Assembly (NCBI GenBank): GCA_019186985.1
Contig: JABARQ010000011.1
Coordinates: 124,001-188,000, forward strand
Reading direction: 5' to 3'
Length of the DNA: 64,000 nucleotides
Source of the DNA: Prosthecobacter sp.
Lineage (GTDB): Bacteria > Verrucomicrobiota > Verrucomicrobiia > Verrucomicrobiales > Verrucomicrobiaceae
In this document: positions 2,804 through 24,975 of the stretch, in pieces
How the letters are laid out: each line of letters opens with the position of its first letter
How positions within the stretch are numbered: the first letter of the stretch is position 1
Notes under the pieces: model-generated
Databases searched by the model: none
What the model saw: only the letters and a program-made list of their open reading frames with translations
Told to the model about the DNA's origin: nothing
Translations under genes and position numbers: made by a program

Positions 2804-3133
2804 CGTCGCGGATTATGCTGTCACAGGTCCATGACGTTTTGGAGGGGAAAGGTGACATGGTGACTGAAATGTCGGGGGTGGTGCGGCGGGTGACGGGTGT
2901 CACGGTTGTTGGGTGGCCTTCAAAGAGAACTCGGCGGCGGTGGTGATGGGCGATCAACGTCCGGCGGAGTGCAAACAAGCCGAAAATGGCGGCGTTCTTT
3001 GCGTGGCGATGCACGCGCATCTGTTTTAGCGCGACCCCTGCCTGCCATGGGCTCTCAGCAGATGACAAAGTGCCTTTCCATTTCGGCCACCGAGGCGGGA
3101 TGAAAGAGTATGTCGAAAAGAAGAAGTGAAATA

Positions 3134-3188
3134 GGCAGTAGAATGAGGGCGGTAGAATCATCTGATTCTGTCTCTTCATTCCGCTGCC
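3134..3188. repeat. Imperfect long inverted repeat (hairpin)
   Basis: GAATCA (3155-3160) and TGATTC (3163-3168) are perfect arms around a 2-nt loop. The pairing continues outward imperfectly, with GGCAGTAGAATGA on the left matching the complement of TTCATTCCGCTGCC on the right. It could fold as a hairpin of about 27 bp. It could be an operator, a terminator-like structure or a mobile palindrome; no T-tract follows. Confidence 0.55.
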
Positions 3189-3194
3189 CCCATT

Positions 3195-3233
3195 GATGCG
3201 CTGCGCTTCCCTGCGGGATCGCTTCGGTCGTCT
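3195..3233. repeat. Intergenic copy of the CCCGCAGGG/GCGAAGCG palindromic element
   Basis: On the reverse strand the stretch reads GACCGAAGCGATCCCGCAGG followed by GAAGCGCAGCGC. It combines the CCCGCAGGG core with flanking AGCGNAGCG motifs, the same combination found inside the truncated hsdM gene at 17134-17193 and 17869-17946. This suggests a dispersed short element also present outside genes. Relatedness is judged by eye. Confidence 0.4.
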
Positions 3234-3289
3234 GTCTCACTTCGTCCGGCTCTCCTGCCTACTTCATTCCGTTCAACCGACCCAAACTC

Positions 3290-4504
3290 ATGACTCCCCC
3301 GGCCTCACGCACGCGACGCTCATTCATCACCACATCAGGCAGCACCCTGCTCGGCGGCCTGTGGAGCAGGTCCATCTTCGGCGCCAAGGAGAAAATGCCG
3401 CTGCCCGATCTGCCCAAGGGATGGCATCTGCGGATGGGGAATGCCCAAACACCAGAAGAGGCCATTGCGGAGCTGGAAGCGTTCAAAAAGGCCACGCCTG
3501 ATCTGGCAAGCTGGGAGAAGCGCAGGGCGACCATTCGACAAGGCATCCTCGAAGGCGCACGGCTGGCGAATCCACCCGAGAAGCCGCCGCTTGATCCGGT
3601 GTATTCCAACAAGCGGACCTATGAAGGCTACACGGCGGAGAGCGTGCATATCCGAAGCTGGCACGGATTCTATGTCACCGGCACCCTGTATCGGCCGCTC
3701 GACATGAAGCCGCCTTATGCAGGGATCGTGTCCGCGCATGGACATGGCGGGCGCTTCTTGCCATCGCGCCAGACTCGCTGCGCGGTGCTGGCACGGATGG
3801 GCGCGGTCGTTTTCCACTATGACATGGTGGGCTATGGCGACACGAAAAAGGCGGGCTGGGAACATGGCAAGGTGCCGGAGATCCAGCGCCTCATCATGTG
3901 GAACTGCATCCGTGCTCTCGACTTCGTTTCGTCCATCGAAGGCGTCGATCCCAGGCGCATCGGCATGACCGGCAACTCCGGCGGTGCCACGCAGACCTTT
4001 CTCACGTCCGCCCTGGATGAGCGCATCGCCGTTGCCGTGCCGAGCTGTCAGGTGTCTGCGCATTTCTTTGGCGGCTGTCCGTGTGAAAGCGGCATGCCCA
4101 TCCATTGGGGGCCGAATCACAAGACCAACAACGCCGAGATCGCGGCGATGACCGCGCCACGTCCGCTGCTGGTCATTTCCAATGGAGCTGACTACACGAA
4201 GAGCACACCGCAGGTTGAGTTCCCCTACATCCAGCACATCTACAGCCTCTATGGAGCTGCGGACAAGGTCGTGAACGCTCATTTCCCGCTGGAGGGGCAC
4301 GACTACGGACCCAGCAAGCGTCTGGCCGCCTATCCGTTCTTCATCCGCCACCTCGGACTCAACAGCCTGAGTGTCTGGGCCAAGGAAGAGCAAATTAATG
4401 AGACCTTCGCCAAGGTCGAAACCGAAGAGGAGATGCTCGTCTTCAATGCCAGCAACCCCTGGCCGAAAGATGCCGTGGCACCCAACACCCCGCTGCCTTT
4501 TTGA
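3290..4504 (+). CDS. Tat-exported alpha/beta hydrolase (acetyl xylan esterase/dienelactone hydrolase-like)
   Basis: 404 residues. The N-terminus has a twin-arginine signal ([15 protein letters not shown], 9-23), so the folded enzyme is probably exported. The alpha/beta hydrolase fold is shown by the nucleophile elbow GNSGG (S230), a strand-end GADYT (candidate acid D301) and EGHDYG (candidate H337). The HGHGG stretch at 150-154 may form the oxyanion hole. The family includes carbohydrate acetyl esterases and similar secreted hydrolases common in polysaccharide-degrading Verrucomicrobia. The substrate is not determinable. It stands alone, with about 490 bp upstream and about 700 bp downstream free of clear genes. 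Confidence 0.85.
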
Positions 4505-17022: not shown

Positions 17023-18519
17023 ATGGCCCGCAAAGCATCCAGCAAACCTGCCGACTCCACCGCCAACCTCGGCTTCGAGGCCAAGCTCTGGCTCGCCGCG
17101 GATAAGCTCCGCAACAACATGGACGCGGCGGAACCGGAGCGAAGCGGAGATAGCCAGCCGCAGGCTGCCCGCAGGGCGAGCGAAGCGAGGCAATACAAGC
17201 ACGTCGTCCTCGGCCTCATCTTCCTCAAATACATCTCCGACAGCTTCGAGGCCCACCACGCCAAGCTCGTCGCCGGTGAAGGCGACTACGCCGGGGCCAA
17301 TCCCGAGGACCCGGACGAATACCGCGCCGAAAACATCTTCTGGGTTCCGCCCGCCGCCCGCTGGTCGCACCTTCAGGGCCGGGCGAAGCTCCCCAGCATC
17401 GGCAAGGACGTGGACGACGCCATGGACGCCCTCGAACGCGACACCCCCCGGCTCAAAGGCGCGCTCAACAAGAACTACGGCCGCGCCGACCTCGACAAGC
17501 ACCGCCTCGGCGAACTCATTGACCTCATCGGCTCCATTGACCTGAACAGGTCACCCTCACCCCAGCTCTCTCCCACTGGGAGAGGGACGAGCGAAGCAGA
17601 GGGTGAGGGTAAGATCCGTCGCGAGAAGGACATTTTGGGCCGCGTCTTCGAATACTTCCTCACGCAGTTTGCTTCGGCGGAAGGCAAGAACGGCGGGCAG
17701 TTCTACACCCCGTCCTGCGTCGTGCGCCTGCTCGTCGAGATGCTCGCCCCCTACAAGGGCCGCATCTACGACCCCGCCTGCGGCTCCGGCGGCATGTTCG
17801 TGCAGTCGGAAAAATTCGTCGAATCCCACGGCGGCAAATTGGGCGACATCTCCATCTACGGCCAGGAAAAACGGGCGTGGGGCGCCCGTTTTAGACGAGC
17901 GCAGCGAGCCCGCAGGGTGAGGCTGCGGCGGAAGCAGCCGAATCAAAGCAACCCCACTACCCGTCGCCTCGCCATCATGAACCTCGCCCTGCGCGGCATC
18001 GAGGCCGACTTCGGCAAGGAAAACGCCGACACCTTCCGCGCCGTCCAGCACCCCGACCTCCGCGCCGACACCGCGACGCGCGTGAGCGCGAAATCCAAAC
18101 CGCGAAGCCACTCTGCGGGTCTTTTGCGCAGCGAAAGACAACTCCTCGCCAACCCGCCCTTCAACGACAGCGACTGGCACCGCAAGGACGACGACGTGCG
18201 CTGGCGCTTCGGCGTCCCGCCGAAGGGGAATGCCAACTTCGCCTGGGTGCAGCACTTCATCCACCACCTCTCCCCGAAGGGCATGGCCGGCTTCGTCCTC
18301 GCCAACGGCAGCATGTCCTCCAACCAGTCCGGCGAAGGCGAAATCCGGAAAGCCATCATCGAGGCTGACCTCGTGGACACTGCCTTGCGCGATAGCGCAT
18401 TTCTCCAAAGCGAAGCCACTCCGCAGGTCCTGAGCAAAGCGAAGAACAACATGGTCGCCCTCCCCGGCCAACTCTTCTACAGCACGGAAGCGCAAGCTTC
18501 GTTTCAAATAGCCGCCTGA
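17023..18519 (+). CDS. hsdM: Truncated type I restriction-modification DNA methyltransferase subunit (HsdM) with in-frame insertions
   Basis: 498 residues. The N-terminal HsdM_N helices ([36 protein letters not shown]) and the N6-adenine methylase core are clear: SAM-binding [10 protein letters not shown] (250-259) and catalytic NPPF (377-380). Relative to the family, extra segments interrupt conserved blocks at residues 38-57, about 174-200, 283-308, 350-373 and 453-476, plus a six-residue EAQASF at 489-494. The protein then stops right after LFYST..QI, where HsdM normally continues QIPVCLWFL, so the last helical part is missing. hsdS is absent. Catalytic motifs survive, but modification activity is doubtful. 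The stop lies 3 bp before the GHKL ATPase gene. Confidence 0.85.
17134..17193 (+). repeat. In-frame palindromic insertion 1 in hsdM (60 bp)
   Basis: It adds 20 residues (PERSGD...SEARQ) between NNMDAAE and YKHVVLG, which are contiguous in typical HsdM. The DNA has GAGCGAAGCGGAG at one end and CCCGCAGGGCGAGCGAAGCG at the other. Boundaries are inferred from family knowledge. Confidence 0.65.
17542..17622 (+). repeat. In-frame palindromic insertion 2 in hsdM
   Basis: Between LIDLIGSI and [11 protein letters not shown] lies DNA with nested inverted repeats: CCCTCACCC (17554-17562) with GGGTGAGGG (17601-17609), and CTCTCCC (17568-17574) with GGGAGAG (17578-17584). It encodes [12 protein letters not shown]..., the translation of a palindromic repeat type found dispersed in many genomes. 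It shares GACGAGCGAAGC with insertion 3. Confidence 0.7.
17869..17946 (+). repeat. In-frame palindromic insertion 3 in hsdM (78 bp)
   Basis: It splits the conserved IYGQES-NPTTRR block, adding about 26 residues. A perfect 10-bp hairpin AAAACGGGCG (17868-17877) / CGCCCGTTTT (17883-17892) opens the element. GACGAGCGCAGCGAGCCCGC and a GGCTGC/GCAGCC hairpin follow. Confidence 0.7.
18070..18141 (+). repeat. In-frame palindromic insertion 4 in hsdM (72 bp)
   Basis: It adds 24 residues between HPDLRAD and LLANPPF, which typically are separated by one or two residues. The DNA contains CGCGCGTGAGCGCG and GCGAAGCCACTCTGCGGGTC. The latter nearly matches insertion 5 but is read in another frame. Confidence 0.7.
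18379..18450 (+). repeat. In-frame palindromic insertion 5 in hsdM (72 bp)
   Basis: It adds 24 residues between EADLVD and [12 protein letters not shown]. The DNA contains TTGCGCGATAGCGCA and GCGAAGCCACTCCGCAGGTC, 18 of 20 positions identical to insertion 4 but translated in a different frame. This shows both derive from one element. Confidence 0.7.
18487..18504 (+). repeat. Short hairpin insertion at the hsdM truncation point
   Basis: GAAGC-GCAA-GCTTC (18487-18500) encodes EAQASF between LFYST and QI. HsdM homology ends about two codons later, so this small hairpin marks the left breakpoint of the replaced region. Confidence 0.5.
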
Positions 18520-18522
18520 ACT

Positions 18523-20286
18523 ATGAGCGAGAAAGCCAACTTCAAAGTCGACCCACGGCTCGCCAGCTTACTCGGCGAAACCTACCGCTCGACAGAGCAC
18601 GCGGTGAAGGAACTCGTGGACAACGCGTGGGACGCCGACGCGACGACGATTTCCATAACGCTGCCAGACCCGATGACCGCCGATTCGATTGTCATCGAGG
18701 ACAACGGCAGCGGCATGACCGAGCAGGAGGTTCGCAACGAATACCTCGTGGTCGCAAATGACCGGCGCTCGCGGAAAGGCGACCGGACCAAGCAACTCAA
18801 GCGCCTTGTGAAGGGCCGGAAGGGAATCGGTAAGTTCGCAGGTTTGATGGTTGCGAATGTGATGGCCATCGAAACTACCGCGCGCGGGAAAACGACACGC
18901 GTTGTCATTTCAAAGGACGACCTCCTGAATGCATCCCGCGATTTGGAAAGAATCGACCTCCCGCTAACCATAACGGATGCAGCGGATGGAACATCAGGAA
19001 CCAAGGTCACCTTGTCCTCTCTGAGCGACCGATTCGAGTTTCCTCTTCCCGAGCGGCTCAAGCCTCTTCTGATGACCGAATATGGTCGCGAGGAAGACGT
19101 GCGAATCAGCGTGAATACCGTCCCGCTCGGAATCGACGACCTTCCGGGTGAGAAGTTCGAGAAAGACGAAACCATAGCTGAGGCTGGGACGGTCAAACTG
19201 AACTTCAAAGTCTCCGATGGCGGCAAATCACTCAAACAGGCTGGTATTGCCATTCGCGTAGGCGGCAAGATCGTCGGGAAACCCGGCTTCTTCGGACTGG
19301 AGGACGACCCAGAGATCCCCCCAAAACTACTCAAGAAGGTTTATGGTGAAGTCGAAGCTGACGGACTCGCTGACAGCGTCACTGCTGACTGGGGCGACAT
19401 CGTCGAGAACAGCAAAGCCTTCCACGCGCTGAAGCCCGTCGTCCAAGCGCACCTCAAAAACGCCGTCGAGGAAGTCTACAAGCGTGAGGTCAACCTTCAA
19501 CGCGCCCGCATCCAGCGCCAAATCAATCTCCGTCTGGCGGAGATGCCCGAGCATCGCCGACGCTTCGCCCAAGTCGCACTCGAAAAGGTGATGAAGCGCT
19601 TCTACGGCGAGAGTGAAGACAAGGTCGAAACCGTGGCCTCCGTCATTCTCGACGCATTCGAGAAAGATGAATACTGGCTGGTGTTGAAGCAAATCGACGA
19701 AAGCAAAGGCGGCGACGTTGAGACCTTCGCGTCAGCGCTGGAGGTGTTCGGGCTGCTCGACATGGCGCTCATGGCCAACCAAGCAAAGAGTCGGCTCAAG
19801 GTCTTGGACCACTTGGACGACCTCGTCCGCAACCCGGTCACGCTCGAAAAGAACGTCCACAGCGTCATTGAGCGAAATCTCTGGGTTCTGGGCTACGATC
19901 ATTCCCTCATCTCCTCCAACAAGACGCTCGCCCGCACCATCGAGGAATACACCTCGGTGAAGTTCACCGGCGACCGCGCCTCCAAGCGCCCCGACCTCTT
20001 CCTTGCACAGAATCTTCGTGGCGGCTTTCTCCTGATCGAGTTCAAACGCCCTTCCAAGGCTATCGACCGGCAGGACCAACAACAGGCGCAAGAATACCGC
20101 GACGACCTTGAACCCAAGTTCGGCCAAATCGAAATCCTCCTGCTCGGCAAAGAGCGCGACGTGACCGCGACTGCGAAGAACGATCCGCCCGGCCTTCAAG
20201 TATACGGTTACGAGGCGCTCATCAGCACAGCCCGCACGCAACTCGATTGGTTGCTCGCCGAGTTGAAGAGCGACGAACCCAACTGA
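18523..20286 (+). CDS. MORC-like GHKL ATPase fused to a C-terminal PD-(D/E)XK (Shedu/DUF4263-like) nuclease domain
   Basis: 587 residues. The N-terminal GHKL ATPase (as in Hsp90, MutL and MORC) has the N-box HAVKELVDNAWDADA (E30, N34), DNGSGM (60-65) and the lid loop GRKGIGKFAG (98-107). It resembles bacterial paraMORC proteins known from restriction systems. A transducer-like region (about 160-260) and a helical region with a coiled stretch (about 305-440) follow. The C-terminal 140 residues hold ERNLWVLGYDHSLI, RPD (D491) and LIEFKRP (E506, K508), the PD-(D/E)XK pattern seen in Shedu nucleases. The two parts suggest an ATP-gated DNA nuclease. The start lies 3 bp after the truncated hsdM stop, and the SIR2-STAND gene follows 7 bp downstream. 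Likely role: anti-phage defense (inference). Confidence 0.85.
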   Translation: MSEKANFKVDPRLASLLGETYRSTEHAVKELVDNAWDADATTISITLPDPMTADSIVIEDNGSGMTEQEVRNEYLVVANDRRSRKGDRTKQLKRLVKGRKGIGKFAGLMVANVMAIETTARGKTTRVVISKDDLLNASRDLERIDLPLTITDAADGTSGTKVTLSSLSDRFEFPLPERLKPLLMTEYGREEDVRISVNTVPLGIDDLPGEKFEKDETIAEAGTVKLNFKVSDGGKSLKQAGIAIRVGGKIVGKPGFFGLEDDPEIPPKLLKKVYGEVEADGLADSVTADWGDIVENSKAFHALKPVVQAHLKNAVEEVYKREVNLQRARIQRQINLRLAEMPEHRRRFAQVALEKVMKRFYGESEDKVETVASVILDAFEKDEYWLVLKQIDESKGGDVETFASALEVFGLLDMALMANQAKSRLKVLDHLDDLVRNPVTLEKNVHSVIERNLWVLGYDHSLISSNKTLARTIEEYTSVKFTGDRASKRPDLFLAQNLRGGFLLIEFKRPSKAIDRQDQQQAQEYRDDLEPKFGQIEILLLGKERDVTATAKNDPPGLQVYGYEALISTARTQLDWLLAELKSDEPN

Positions 20287-20293
20287 CACACCA

Positions 20294-23200
20294 GTGATTA
20301 AGCTTCTCGACAAAGCCGCGCTTATCTCAATCGCACGCTACTGCGACCACCCGGTTGCATTCCTTGTGGGCGCGCCCTTGTCGGGCGACGCAGGCGGCGG
20401 TGTCCCCGGCGTCACGCCGATGCTCGCGCTTGTCCGGGAAGAAGTAATCAACCGAGCCGCTCCCGAAGTCTCACGCTACGATGCAGCGGTGGCAGGAAAA
20501 TCCGGTGGCGACGCCTATCAGGCAGCGATGGAGTGGCTGCAAGGAAACGTCGGCCAGCCGGCCGTGAATCGCGTCATTGAGGCTGCCGTCTTGAAGGCCC
20601 GCAATGCTGGTGCGGCCCCGAACTTCGTCAAGAACGGCAAAGACTGTGATTGGTATATCCCGCCCGGCACGCAACAGCTTGCCCAACTTGTCTGCCGGGA
20701 CCTGTGCCAGCCGAAGCCTCATTTTCCTGGCCCCATCCTCACGACGAACTTCGACCCGCTGTTGTCTCTCGCAATCGAGTCGTGCAAGGCAAGGGCGCAC
20801 TGGCGAGTCGTCCAGTCTGACGGTAAACTGGCCGACGTTGGCGAAAATGAGGCCGTGGAAGTCATCCACCTTCATGGTTTTTGGCGCGGTTCCGACACGC
20901 TGCACACGTCGGCTCAACTGACTTCCCCACGCCCCGCCCTCAGGGATTCTCTTCGCAAAATTCTGAAACAGAAAACCCTCATCGTCGCAGCCTACGGCGG
21001 CTGGGATGACGTGTTCGCGCGGGCGCTGGCAGAAGTTGCCGCGGATGATGACGCCCAGTTGAATGTCATCTGGTGTTTCCGTGAAACCGACGAGGCTGCG
21101 GTAAACCTAAAATACAAAGAGCTGTTTGAACGAGTCGCGCCAGCCATCACTCGGGGTCGCTTCCTCTGCTACGGCGGCATAGACTGCCATTCCATCTTCG
21201 GTGAAATCGCGGGCGTTGCGCCAAGCACACCCGCAGCCGCGGCGGTCATCACGTCCCCGCTGGCTGGGTGGGAACTCATTGTCCCGGCTCACTTCGCCGG
21301 CCTGTCACCGCTCCGCCCCGAGGAAATCATCCGATACTTCGACGGCGCGACTCCCACTTGGCGGCACGCAATCAGCGCAGACATCCCGCGCCGTGCCGCC
21401 GTTGCGGAGATAGCCAGACGATTCGCTTCCGCCCGAACCGTCAAAGACGACGGCTCCCTACAACTCATCCGTGCCGCTGGTGGCGAAGGCAAGACGACGC
21501 TCCTCCTGCAAGCCGCCGCTGATGCCGTGAACAGTGGAAACTGGAATGTCCTCTGGCGCCCGACCTCTCGTGTCGGCCTGCCACCGGAGCACATCACTTC
21601 ACTGGACCCCACGAAGCACTGGCTCATCGTCGCCGACGACGCCGAGAATCTCACGAAAGACCTTCGCGAGGCGGCGCGTCTGCTTCACGACGCCGGGCAT
21701 TCACACGTTCACTTCCTGTTCGCCGCGCGAGACACGGACTGGCGCTACTTCAGGTGTGAACAGGACACGCGGGCGGCATCGTTGAAGCGGCATGACGACA
21801 TCACGCTGAGAGTCTTGCGACCGGAAGACGCCAAGATGCTCGTCGAAGCATGGCGGAAATGCGGCGCCGACGGCTTACGCGAGCTTGCCGCCTTAGGCAC
21901 GGCGGACAAGCAGGTGACTGCGCTCCTTCAAGCGGTGCAAGGCGATGCCGCGAAGGGTGACGAAGGCTCATTCTTTGGTGGATTGCTTGACGTGCGCTTC
22001 GGGCCGGAAGGACTGCGGAATCACATCGTCTCTTTGCTCACGCGGTTGAAGGAGGAGAAGATTCATAAAAGCGAGCGCACCCTTTTCGATGCGCTCGTTT
22101 TTGTCGCCGCGTGTCACGCCGTCGGCATTCGCGGACTCGATGAGAAAGTCCTCGCCGACTTGGTCGGCGTAGACCGCGAGTGGGTGCAAACGCTCGTCGT
22201 GGATTTGCTCGGTGAAGAAGCGGCAGCCGTCCGAAGCGCCGGGCATGTGTTCACTCGGCACCGCAATGTAGCCGCTGCAATCTTGGTTGCCGCCGAACAA
22301 GCTTTGGGAGCCAATATCGCGGAAGTGTGGAAAGCCATCGTTCGTCAGACTATCAGAACGAGCAGTGATGGGGGGGTGAGTCGGCAGACCCATGCGAAGA
22401 TCGTTCACGCGGCACCCAATCTGCAACGCAGCCTGCCTCCACAGTTCACGGAACAACGTCGAAAGGAGATTGCCGTCGCGGCTGCCGATGTAGCAATAGA
22501 GGCTGATGATGAAGGGCGGCTTTCGTATATCGTTGACCTCGGGAAGACCTACCGAAACGCGGGCGATTTCGCTGCCGCCGTCCAAGTGTTCCGGGACAAT
22601 TTGCCCACGGCGCCAAGCAAGGTCGATTTCGCTGAAGTCATCCGAGGCTATTGGTATGAGTGGGGAGGGTGCGAAGGTCGCCTCGGACAAGAGAGTCATC
22701 ACGCTCTCAGTAACGCGTGGGTATGCGGTTTATCGCTTTCCAACTTGGAAACGACCAACATCTCAGAGGAACAGGTCAAATTGAGTTGCGCGGGAACCGG
22801 CGTCGCACTCGGAAAGCTTGCAGCCACGCGACCCGACTGCCCTTTCGCACGCGGTCGCAGGGCGACAGCGTTTCTCGGGCTGCTCTCAAATCCTGACGAA
22901 AAGGGAAGGCGTTTTTTCGAATCGGATCACCGCGACGCCGACAAGATTCATACGCCTTATCCGAAGAGCATCGAAGAAGCGATTGCTTGGTTGACGACCG
23001 CCGTAGCCCAAGCGGGCCGCGAACTCCAAGACCCGTTTCTGAAGGCCCTGCTCAAGCCCGAGCATGTCTCCTTCAACATGCTCCGCGATTTCCTCAGTCC
23101 CGCCCCGCCTCCACGGCCACGCGCCAAACCATACAATCCTCCGCCTGCTCCGAAATCACCGCCTGTTGACGATACGAAGCCCATCCAGTGGCCAAGCCCG

Positions 23201-23416
23201 TTGGAAGCCAAAATTAAGACAGGCATCGAGAGAGTGTTGCGCGAGGCATGGGAAGCAGTCCCGGAGGACACAGGGCCCGAAGACCGGTTCAAAGTTGCCC
23301 GCCGCAAGGCCGACGATTCGATTAACCGACTATCCCCATACATAAAGCGCGATGTCCGCGCTCACTTTAATGCCGAAAACTGGGAATCCCTCAGAACCAG
23401 TGACCCCAAGCGCTGA
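20294..23416 (+). CDS. SIR2-STAND NTPase, probable anti-phage sensor/effector
   Basis: 1040 residues from GTG. The N-terminal SIR2-like domain (about 1-310) shows a FLVGAPLSGDAGGGVPG nucleotide loop, TTNFD (150-154, N152), VIHLHGFW (H194) and AAYGGWDD (232-239). Such domains usually hydrolyse NAD+ in defense proteins. A STAND-type P-loop NTPase follows: Walker A AAGGEGKTT (394-402), Walker B WLIVADD (443-449) and the FLFAARD strand (474-480). Winged-helix and helical/TPR-like regions come next, then a proline-rich linker (about 935-965) and a helical tail. The layout recalls Avs5-like SIR2-STAND proteins, in which target binding triggers NAD+ loss and abortive infection. It is coupled to the GHKL-nuclease gene. 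Its TGA is immediately followed, in the same frame, by hsdR remnant codons. Confidence 0.85.
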   Translation: MIKLLDKAALISIARYCDHPVAFLVGAPLSGDAGGGVPGVTPMLALVREEVINRAAPEVSRYDAAVAGKSGGDAYQAAMEWLQGNVGQPAVNRVIEAAVLKARNAGAAPNFVKNGKDCDWYIPPGTQQLAQLVCRDLCQPKPHFPGPILTTNFDPLLSLAIESCKARAHWRVVQSDGKLADVGENEAVEVIHLHGFWRGSDTLHTSAQLTSPRPALRDSLRKILKQKTLIVAAYGGWDDVFARALAEVAADDDAQLNVIWCFRETDEAAVNLKYKELFERVAPAITRGRFLCYGGIDCHSIFGEIAGVAPSTPAAAAVITSPLAGWELIVPAHFAGLSPLRPEEIIRYFDGATPTWRHAISADIPRRAAVAEIARRFASARTVKDDGSLQLIRAAGGEGKTTLLLQAAADAVNSGNWNVLWRPTSRVGLPPEHITSLDPTKHWLIVADDAENLTKDLREAARLLHDAGHSHVHFLFAARDTDWRYFRCEQDTRAASLKRHDDITLRVLRPEDAKMLVEAWRKCGADGLRELAALGTADKQVTALLQAVQGDAAKGDEGSFFGGLLDVRFGPEGLRNHIVSLLTRLKEEKIHKSERTLFDALVFVAACHAVGIRGLDEKVLADLVGVDREWVQTLVVDLLGEEAAAVRSAGHVFTRHRNVAAAILVAAEQALGANIAEVWKAIVRQTIRTSSDGGVSRQTHAKIVHAAPNLQRSLPPQFTEQRRKEIAVAAADVAIEADDEGRLSYIVDLGKTYRNAGDFAAAVQVFRDNLPTAPSKVDFAEVIRGYWYEWGGCEGRLGQESHHALSNAWVCGLSLSNLETTNISEEQVKLSCAGTGVALGKLAATRPDCPFARGRRATAFLGLLSNPDEKGRRFFESDHRDADKIHTPYPKSIEEAIAWLTTAVAQAGRELQDPFLKALLKPEHVSFNMLRDFLSPAPPPRPRAKPYNPPPAPKSPPVDDTKPIQWPSPLEAKIKTGIERVLREAWEAVPEDTGPEDRFKVARRKADDSINRLSPYIKRDVRAHFNAENWESLRTSDPKR

Positions 23417-24975
23417 TTCACCGGCACACCCAACGAGAGGACCGTCGCCAACACGCGGTCGGTCTTCGGCGATTGCATTTCCAACTACGACATCCAGCGC
23501 GCCGTCGCGGACAAAGCCACGGTGCCGATCTATTACGAGAGCCGCATCGCCAAGCTGGGTCTGAACGCCACCGAGCTGCCCACCCTCGACGCGGAGTTTG
23601 ACGAGATCACCGAAGGCGAGGAGCTGACGAAGAAGGAGAAGCTGAAAACGAAGTGGGCCGCGCTGGAAGCGATGGTGGGCCACCCGAAACGCGTCGCGCT
23701 CATCGCCGCCGACCTCGTGGCGCATTTCGAGAAGCGGATCGAAGCCATGAACGGCAAGGCAATGATCGTCTGCATGAGCCGCCGCATCTGCGTGGATCTT
23801 TACGACGCCCTCATCAAGCTGCGCCCCGAGTGGGCGGAGGACACGCTCAAGGTCGTCATGACCGGCAGCGCCGACGACGGCCCCGAGTGGCAGAAGCACA
23901 TCGGCAACAAGCAGCAGCGCCGCGAGCTGGCGAATCGCTTCAAAGACCCGAAGGACCCCTTCCGCATCGTGATCGTGCGCGACATGTGGCTGACCGGATT
24001 CGACGCGCCCTGCCTGCACACGATGTATGCCGACAAGCCGATGCAAGGCCACGGCCTCATGCAGGCCATCGCCCGCGTGAACCGCGTCTTCAAAGACAAG
24101 CCCGGCGGTCTGGTGGTCGATTACCTGGGACTGGCGGACCAGCTCAAGAAGGCGCTGGCGAACTACACCGAAAGCGGCGGCAAGGGCGATCCCACCTTTG
24201 ACACCAAACAGGCCATCGCGGTGATGCTGGAGAAACACGGCATCGCCAGCGCCATGATGCATGGCTTTGACTGGAGCCCGTGGACGACGGGCAAACCCAG
24301 CGAGCGTCTCGCGCTGATCCCCGCCGGGCAGGAGCACATCCTCCAGCAGGAGGACGGCAAGCCGCGCTTCGTGCAGGTGGTGACCGAGCTGTCGAGCGCC
24401 TTCGCGCTGTGCGCGGCGAGCGACGAGGCGGTGGCGGTGCGGGATGACGTTTCCTTCTTCCAAGCCATCCAGGCGGCGCTGAACAAGCAGACGACCAGCC
24501 GCAAGACGCCGGAACAGCTCGACGCCGCCGTGCGCCAACTGGTGAGCAAGGCCATCACCACCGAGGGCGAGGTGATCGACGTCTTCACCGCCGCCGGTTT
24601 GCCGAAGGCGGACATCAGCATCCTCGACGGACGCTTCCTCGCCGAGGTGCGCGGCCTGAAGCACAAGAACGTGGCCGCCGAGCTGCTGGAGAAGCTGCTG
24701 AAGGACGAACTCAAGGTGCGGTCGAAGCGGAACCTCGTGCAGAGCCAGCTGTTGGCTCCGGCATTCCCATGCCTGCGGGCTTCGCCCAGCGCTTCGCGCT
24801 GCCTGTCTCGCACGCTCCAGCGGCTCGGCTCAGCGAGAAGCTCAAGAAGACCCTTAACGCCTACCACATGGTGAAGCGCATCCTGAACAAATACGGCTAC
24901 CCGCCGGACCTCCAGGAAGAAGCGGTGAAGACGGTCCTCCAACAGGCGGAACTGCTGTGTGCGGATTGGATTTAA
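23417..24975 (+). pseudogene. hsdR: 3' remnant of type I restriction endonuclease subunit R (HsdR)
   Basis: The remnant begins directly after the SIR2-STAND stop codon with [19 protein letters not shown], the middle of the HsdR helicase. It continues through [53 protein letters not shown] and [24 protein letters not shown] (helicase motifs V-VI). The nuclease and first helicase half are absent. Near 24750-24830 a GC-rich palindromic segment intrudes after RNLVQSQ and shifts the frame. Homology resumes in another frame with [12 protein letters not shown], then jumps by deletion to [13 protein letters not shown]...ELLCADWI and stops at 24973-24975. An internal ATG (23522) could start a 450-codon frame, but no functional restriction subunit is possible. 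Confidence 0.85.
24750..24830. repeat. Palindromic insertion in the hsdR remnant
   Basis: Between RNLVQSQ and [12 protein letters not shown] of HsdR lies about 80 bp containing GCCTGCGGGCTTCGCCC and AGCGCTTCGCGCT. On the reverse strand this reads with GCGAAGCCCGCAGG, matching the core of the elements in hsdM. Here it breaks the frame. Edges are approximate. Confidence 0.5.

Follow-up and report, generated by a model that had tools for sequence, protein, structure and literature searches.

How does an hsdM gene come to carry five extra segments without losing its reading frame, and is it still kept as a methyltransferase gene? The window analysed here, a 64,000-nucleotide stretch of Prosthecobacter sp. 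DNA, raises both questions. An earlier note had read the gene as the host of a family of palindromic elements of about 60-80 bp, similar to the Rickettsia palindromic elements (RPEs), which insert into coding DNA and are tolerated as peptide. The following analysis retains the insertions and their frame and leads to another view of what the frame is for: hsdM as a putative translated leader in front of defence genes.

Compared with the hsdM genes of four genomes of the same genus (G030, G007, G013 and G028), which are without them, the window gene contains five extra segments of 60-78 bp, each adding a multiple of three bases, at residues ~38-57, 176-198, 283-308, 350-374 and 453-475 (I1 to I5, Table 1). 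The number, size, frame and positions in the earlier note are thereby borne out; the chance that all five would be in frame is about (1/3)^5, or 0.4%. A general feature of HsdM they are not, an idea ruled out by homologues from many phyla: inserts of at least 10 residues occur in 0/80 of them at each of the I1, I3 and I4 sites and in 0/79 at the I5 site. The I2 site is variable in length, with at least 10 extra residues in 5 of 80 homologues. We take I3, I4 and I5 to lie adjacent to the Glu of the SAM site, at the strand preceding NPPF and in the following strand, respectively. Folded as DNA, only I2 (z -3.7) and I3 (z -2.3), which contain the two hairpins named in the note, do better than shuffled sequences, with no gain for I1 (z +1.1), I4 (z -0.9) or I5 (z +0.5), so that 'palindromic' is strictly true for two of the five. 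The small hairpin reported at residues 489-494 is located in the new tail past the point where hsdM is cut. I4 and I5 resemble each other (70% across 76 nt, 78% in the best 41), and the reading frames through I1 and I5 are open in 5/6 and 4/6 cases, respectively.

Table 1. Features of the hsdM locus in the window (positions are those of the window).
Feature	Position	Strand	Basis or remark
hsdM remnant ORF, 498 codons (proposed translated leader)	17023..18519	+	Pfam HsdM_N and N6_Mtase; alignment to intact same-genus hsdM
Insert I1, 60 bp, I1-family element, 20 residues encoded	17134..17193	+	Absent in relatives
Insert I2, ~60 bp, hairpin CCCTCACCC.../...GGGTGAGGG, naturally variable linker	17551..17610	+	
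Insert I3, 78 bp, flanked by GQE and SNPTT; composite that includes the AAACGGGCG/CGCCCGTTT hairpin	17869..17946	+	
Insert I4, 73 bp in place of 4 bp (net 69 bp), directly before LLANPPF (motif IV)	18070..18142	+	
Insert I5, 69 bp, 23 residues encoded	18379..18447	+	
Junction: hsdM cut after FYST, 10-codon new tail, stop TGA 18517-18519, next ATG 18523	18487..18525	+	
Cargo gene 1, HATPase_c_3 ATPase	18523..20286	+	Pfam; C-terminal region is Shedu-like, under the Pfam cut-off
Cargo gene 2, SIR2_2 domain and nSTAND NTPase	20294..23416	+	
hsdR remnant, 3' part	23522..24874	+	REase_I model matched up to residue 411

What became of the rest of the gene and its operon? In the alignment, the window hsdM ends after LFYST, which is residue 378 of 549 in G030, leaving ~170 C-terminal residues gone, and the stop of the new tail precedes the first cargo ATG by 3 nt. 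Two defence-type genes (18523-23416) sit on one strand between the remnants of hsdM and hsdR; the 5' half of hsdR is missing, and its remainder shows no frameshift across the 390 residues compared. ORFs and Pfam matches revealed no hsdS beside the window hsdM or between the two remnants. A complete type I restriction-modification (R-M) set of HsdM_N, N6_Mtase, C-terminal region, hsdS and hsdR is thus absent at this locus, since the hsdM C-terminus is gone, hsdR is incomplete and hsdS does not adjoin. With its defence genes placed inside a type I R-M locus, the window resembles G009:C68, G016:C6 and G213:C33. The own genome, G000, in which the window lies on contig C7, holds a second hsdM 5' remnant (contig C3, L241, ~1470-1682), which ends shortly past MDAAE; its stop lies 16 nt ahead of an hsdR start (REase_I).

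Structure prediction and codon substitution were used to ask what the remaining protein could do. The AlphaFold model of the window protein has a good N-terminal domain, and from residue 176 onwards pLDDT falls below 50 except at 388-401 and 408. Its TM-score to the HsdM structure 3khk is 0.28, versus 0.73 for L069, a control without inserts that is 90% identical, has the same C-terminal limit and was modelled with the same homologues as alignment; both models are rough (mean pLDDT 48 and 67). In these predictions, the methylase domain is lost in the inserted protein and kept in the uninserted homologue. Together with the missing C-terminus, the halved hsdR and the lack of an adjoining hsdS, this speaks against the claim that the inserts are simply tolerated as peptide in HsdM. 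For the non-insert codons of the window, dN/dS against intact genes is 0.12-0.30, similar to that among intact genes with their median of 0.147 (only the window rows were used, as several pairs, G010, G016:C2 and G009:C68, are inflated by misaligned tails). Private N/S counts are 17/17 for the window versus 5/21 to 17/19 in one set, and 20/14 for the intact G028a in another. These patterns are therefore compatible with recent decay and with residual selection on the protein alike.

And what about hsdM elsewhere in the order? The first 37 HsdM residues were matched in 50 of 386 Verrucomicrobiales genomes, and the hsdM 5' remnants found in the order range from 32 to 498 codons. Spacing between the hsdM stop and the next start was counted at 28 loci, namely seven earlier ones and 21 of 30 that were fetched, chosen mainly for short open frames. 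Of the other nine, six have an ORF still open at the contig end (G151, G172, G279, G206, G119 and G184), G349 is near-intact, in G099 hsdM is interrupted by a nonsense codon, and G160 retains the natural end. Among the 28, which are not independent of one another given shared inserts and two G016 copies, 20 have their hsdM-frame stop within -30 to +20 nt of a start that opens an ORF of at least 250 aa, versus 12/56 for the other two frames (Fisher 1.3e-5). With ORFs of at least 130 aa the figures are 22/28 versus 19/56 (1.6e-4), the control frames matching so often because long ORFs abound in this GC-rich DNA, spurious ones being plentiful in the window too. Eight of the 28 loci show a -4 ATGA/GTGA overlap, and six are uncoupled even at 130 aa (G124, G166:C54, G029, G057, G087 and G016:C2). 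If G349, G099 and G160 are kept, 30 of 31 loci have a next ORF, 23 of them within -30 to +20 nt, the one at G099 being a false next gene. The G053 remnant, like G099, carries a stop.

The locus histories have to be inferred from fragmented assemblies, in which deletions, too, respect the frame: by eye, internal deletions are in frame in G009, G029, G150, G154, G160, G166:C132 and G180:C599. Also by eye, hsdM is joined in frame to an HsdS-like C-terminus in G143 and G180:C509, and in G029 the leader is joined in frame to hsdM's own end. The hsdR remnants, which come last in such loci, are frameshifted or stopped in 6/9 (G009:C68, G016:C6, G016:C2, G213:C33, G009:C10 and G180:C599) and unbroken in the window, G099 and G010. 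A separate arrangement is seen in G010:C18 (L251, complement of 1-1175). There an ORF of 391 codons or more, open up to the contig end, combines hsdM residues 1-121, in frame, with the C-terminal portion of HsdR.

The genes behind the leader were compared with PADLOC models at 25 of the 28 loci (all but G124, G166:C54 and G087), of which 23 gave a match and two, G143 and G323, none. The matches comprise SIR2-STAND, PsyrTA, Hachiman (2), DRT3, RT-UG5/nitrilase, GmrSD (2), MmeI type IIG (2), RhuM/PDC-S05 (2), PD-Lambda-5, MTases, hsdR (3) and others; defence matches in this position are partly expected within a defence island. One genome has its hsdM-HamA locus, with hsdR remnant, in two almost identical versions (G016:C6 and C2; L301 and L359). 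The leader ends caught our attention as possible degrons, as ssrA-type tags end in [LIV][AV]A-like residues and four of the first eight leader ORFs do so as well, versus 3/237 long ORFs (-IAA in the window at 18487-18519, -LAA in L299, -LAA in L289 and -LVA in L360). We do not claim such a role: the pattern was not repeated in the loci added later, among which only G009:C10 has this ending, and that leader was already one of the first eight.

Where do the inserted elements come from? I1 belongs to a dispersed REP-like family of ~60-62 nt, whose copies differ in length by a few nt, with matches in 28 of 34 genomes of the genus, five in the own genome and up to 26 in other species; I2, I3 and I5 have one own-genome match each. 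A search of 395,761 bases sampled from the own genome, the window among them, yielded 15 match rows, six of which are self-hits. At the same hsdM site in G124, a member of another genus, the I1 copy is identical over 60/60 bases, so decorated hsdM alleles probably move between genera. I1 copies mostly have GATAG or GGTAG ahead of AGCCGCAGGCT or a variant of it (by eye). In L158, L195, L199 and others, I1 is often enclosed by longer palindromes whose outer arms read, for example, TGCGGA.../...TCCGC, or is followed by a CTCCAG/CTGGAG hairpin and Ts, which looks terminator-like. An Rfam scan of nine loci gave a single match, far under the gathering score.

The surroundings of I1 were classified with a codon model at strict settings for 107 matches (105 distinct) in the fetched loci. 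No coding flank was called for 81 and a single one for 15, five lie between genes on opposite strands, two have too short a flank, and four have same-strand coding sequence on both sides, all four in frame; the model is of limited sensitivity, calling the window's own I1 copy coding on one side only. Pfam supports in-frame copies inside or at the edge of the domains PSD1 (L150), APH (L156), GCV_T (L151) and, in the own genome, an FAD oxidoreductase (L004). It likewise supports in-frame I1-type elements in two DDE transposases (DDE_Tnp_1; L003 1218-2603 on the minus strand, own genome, and L234 413-1279 on the minus strand) and in a protein-kinase linker (L208). One copy is out of frame, in an IS630-like transposase that was named by eye and has no Pfam match (L170). 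Two APH-type kinase genes (L156 33-2195 and L176 945-2129) carry differing repeat material at what appears to be the same spot, after ...WSA. As a candidate mover of the repeats we considered a RAYT and set it aside, as Y1_Tnp genes are present but not clearly flanked by the repeats: the own genome has nine Y1_Tnp matches, five above cut-off and two strong, and around the two strong genes there are just 10-16 bp matches to I1-I5, four of 13-15 bp at the C8 gene.

The other elements are distributed differently from I1. I5-type copies are rarer, occurring in 18/239 genomes of the order, and among the best nine matches eight lie in hsdM or its remains (G000, G154, G166, G193, G047, G009, G213 and G026, with G154 assigned to hsdM by eye only) and one, in G082, outside hsdM. 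These eight strong copies, found by a DNA search that is blind to frame, occupy five different sites in a common orientation and frame; G154 (96%) and G166 (91%) have theirs at the site of I5 in the window. I3 matches occur in 4/34 genomes of the genus, the I3 site of the window being used in G009, G047 and G193 too, and I2 matches in 5/34, one of these being an opposite-strand match in the linker of the intact hsdM of G007. Since, within the genus, the I3- and I5-type copies that match strongly sit in hsdM, the 'one element family' of the earlier note is too simple, even though its claim of elements inserting into coding DNA holds for the dispersed I1. In G067, an hsdM fragment (L295, ~2956-3306, minus strand) is interrupted twice more in frame, by inserts at GKNGG^QFYT and GSGG^; the latter is weakly I5-like in opposite orientation, at a site that it shares with G016 and G193.

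The hsdM genes that bear these elements are mostly remnants. Counting both strands, I1, I3, I4 or I5 matches are found in 12/32 complete remnant ORFs versus 0/9 intact hsdM genes (Fisher 0.04); with contig-end ORFs included, decorated alleles amount to 14/39, and to 16/39 if a single strand is searched and I2 and contig-end ORFs are counted. G009 has two remnants, one without residues ~41 to 232 and the other without 39-170. Most of the N-terminal half is gone from hsdM in G047:C74 and G193. The G193 ORF lacks its first 205 residues, has its HsdM C-terminus in full and five inserts that are all in frame, and overlaps with the ORF that follows. At the extreme, G154, G166:C132 and G213:C33 are mini-ORFs in which a start and a handful of hsdM residues persist beside an I5-type element.

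From this anatomy we suggest that hsdM persists not as a methyltransferase gene but as a leader whose translation is coupled to that of exchanged defence cargo, a reading that we favour with some reserve. The 5' end of the type I R-M operon would stay, while the 3' part of hsdM, hsdS and the 5' part of hsdR would be replaced by defence genes. The remaining hsdM ORF would still be translated from the old start, and its stop, so close to the cargo ATG, may couple translation to the cargo or prevent polarity. Translation would then run through to a cargo that depends on its leader, and selection for leader translation, not for HsdM activity, would explain the frame: as selection would act on the open frame and not on the protein, stop-poor REP-like elements and deletions would be retained where they preserve it. 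For the insertion itself, a RAYT-type single-strand route is our guess only.

A gene dead only recently would look much the same as such a leader. Ordinary recent decay, in which a dead gene gained repeats and owes its open frame and stop position to luck and to the low stop density of GC-rich DNA, would be in line with the many spurious long ORFs, the incomplete hsdM and hsdR, the stops in G099 and G053 and the open window hsdR remnant. It sits uneasily, however, with five of five window inserts in frame, with the single frame and orientation of the eight I5-type copies, with a stop-to-start spacing that differs from the other frames at p ~1e-5 and with the hsdR remnants that lose frame at other such loci, and we consider it unlikely. 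Might the inserts instead be selfish elements carried as extra peptide by a still-working HsdM, as claimed for Rickettsia proteins? The frame of the window inserts, non-insert codons that are not clearly relaxed, the in-frame I1 copies in other genes, the I2-type hairpin of the intact G007 gene and the G193 ORF with its complete C-terminus would all suit this view. Yet that same ORF has lost its N-terminal part, the window HsdM has neither its C-terminus nor an adjoining hsdS, its predicted structure collapses and I1, I3, I4 and I5 are absent from the nine intact alleles, making a working HsdM rather improbable.

The frame could also be kept by the elements themselves, if their units were 3n long and stop-poor, so that any insertion would be in frame. 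I1 adds exactly 60 bp, and I1 and I5 are open in most frames; on the other side, the lengths within the I1 family vary, I4 swaps out 4 bp with a net length that is still 3n, element-free deletions are in frame too (G029 and G160) and the IS630-like gene (by eye) was put out of frame by its I1 copy. We give this explanation little credence. Least credible of all is an assembly artefact in metagenome bins: the genomes are in several to hundreds of contigs, but sites and elements are shared between genomes, also of different genera (G000, G009, G047, G124, G154, G166 and G193), and misassembly would not respect the frame.

We would like to place the translated-leader reading into the context of known systems, as the cited sources describe them. 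RPEs are short repeats that occupy numerous unrelated protein genes without breaking the frame, the first ones being ~150 bp long (PMC10969869, PMC3733652). By these features the window inserts are alike in sitting in frame in protein genes and different in being 60-78 bp long, in being hairpin-like beyond shuffles only for I2 and I3, and in piling up in one decaying R-M gene ahead of defence cargo. GTAG/CGTC-tagged REPs are described as mostly intergenic, with intragenic copies in Opitutus terrae, a verrucomicrobium, where some genes are hit twice with 20-30 residues per insert (PMC3733652). Both cases concern REP-like repeats within coding genes of Verrucomicrobia; here, however, one gene has five inserts, and I1 has only a GRTAG-like tag before an AGCC-GCA-GGCT hairpin (by eye). 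In the RptR/DarTG2 island, defence genes are flanked by hsdS and hsdR of a type I R-M system, and the authors suggest a recombination hotspot there (PMC12255303). In both cases a type I R-M operon hosts other defence genes, but the published one, as far as described, has complete hsdM, hsdS and hsdR, whereas the loci studied here combine a leader-like, shrinking hsdM with a remnant of hsdR and with cargo that differs from one locus to the next. The titles and abstracts listed, a scope that leaves most subscription papers outside, mentioned neither hsdM remnants acting as leaders nor repeats lying in frame within hsdM. In-frame repeats, intragenic REPs and defence genes in type I R-M loci are thus each known; their combination with hsdM as a coupled leader was not seen in the literature searched.

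Tentatively, the locus may exemplify an expression slot used across Verrucomicrobiales, in which hsdM is eroded to a leader of as few as 30-100 codons that has to stay open up to an ATGA-type junction, with exchanged anti-phage systems behind it. Repeats and deletions would build in-frame leaders in this slot, and repeat decoration would be a by-product of frame-locked decay. In-frame repeats inside non-functional genes become explicable if the constraint is translation to the next gene and not the peptide, and the same question applies to the intragenic repeats in Rickettsia and Opitutus. An hsdM N-terminus, a short ORF, an ATGA and cargo together form a signature by which defence systems can be searched, and a position downstream of a translated R-M leader could give newly arrived defence genes immediate expression.
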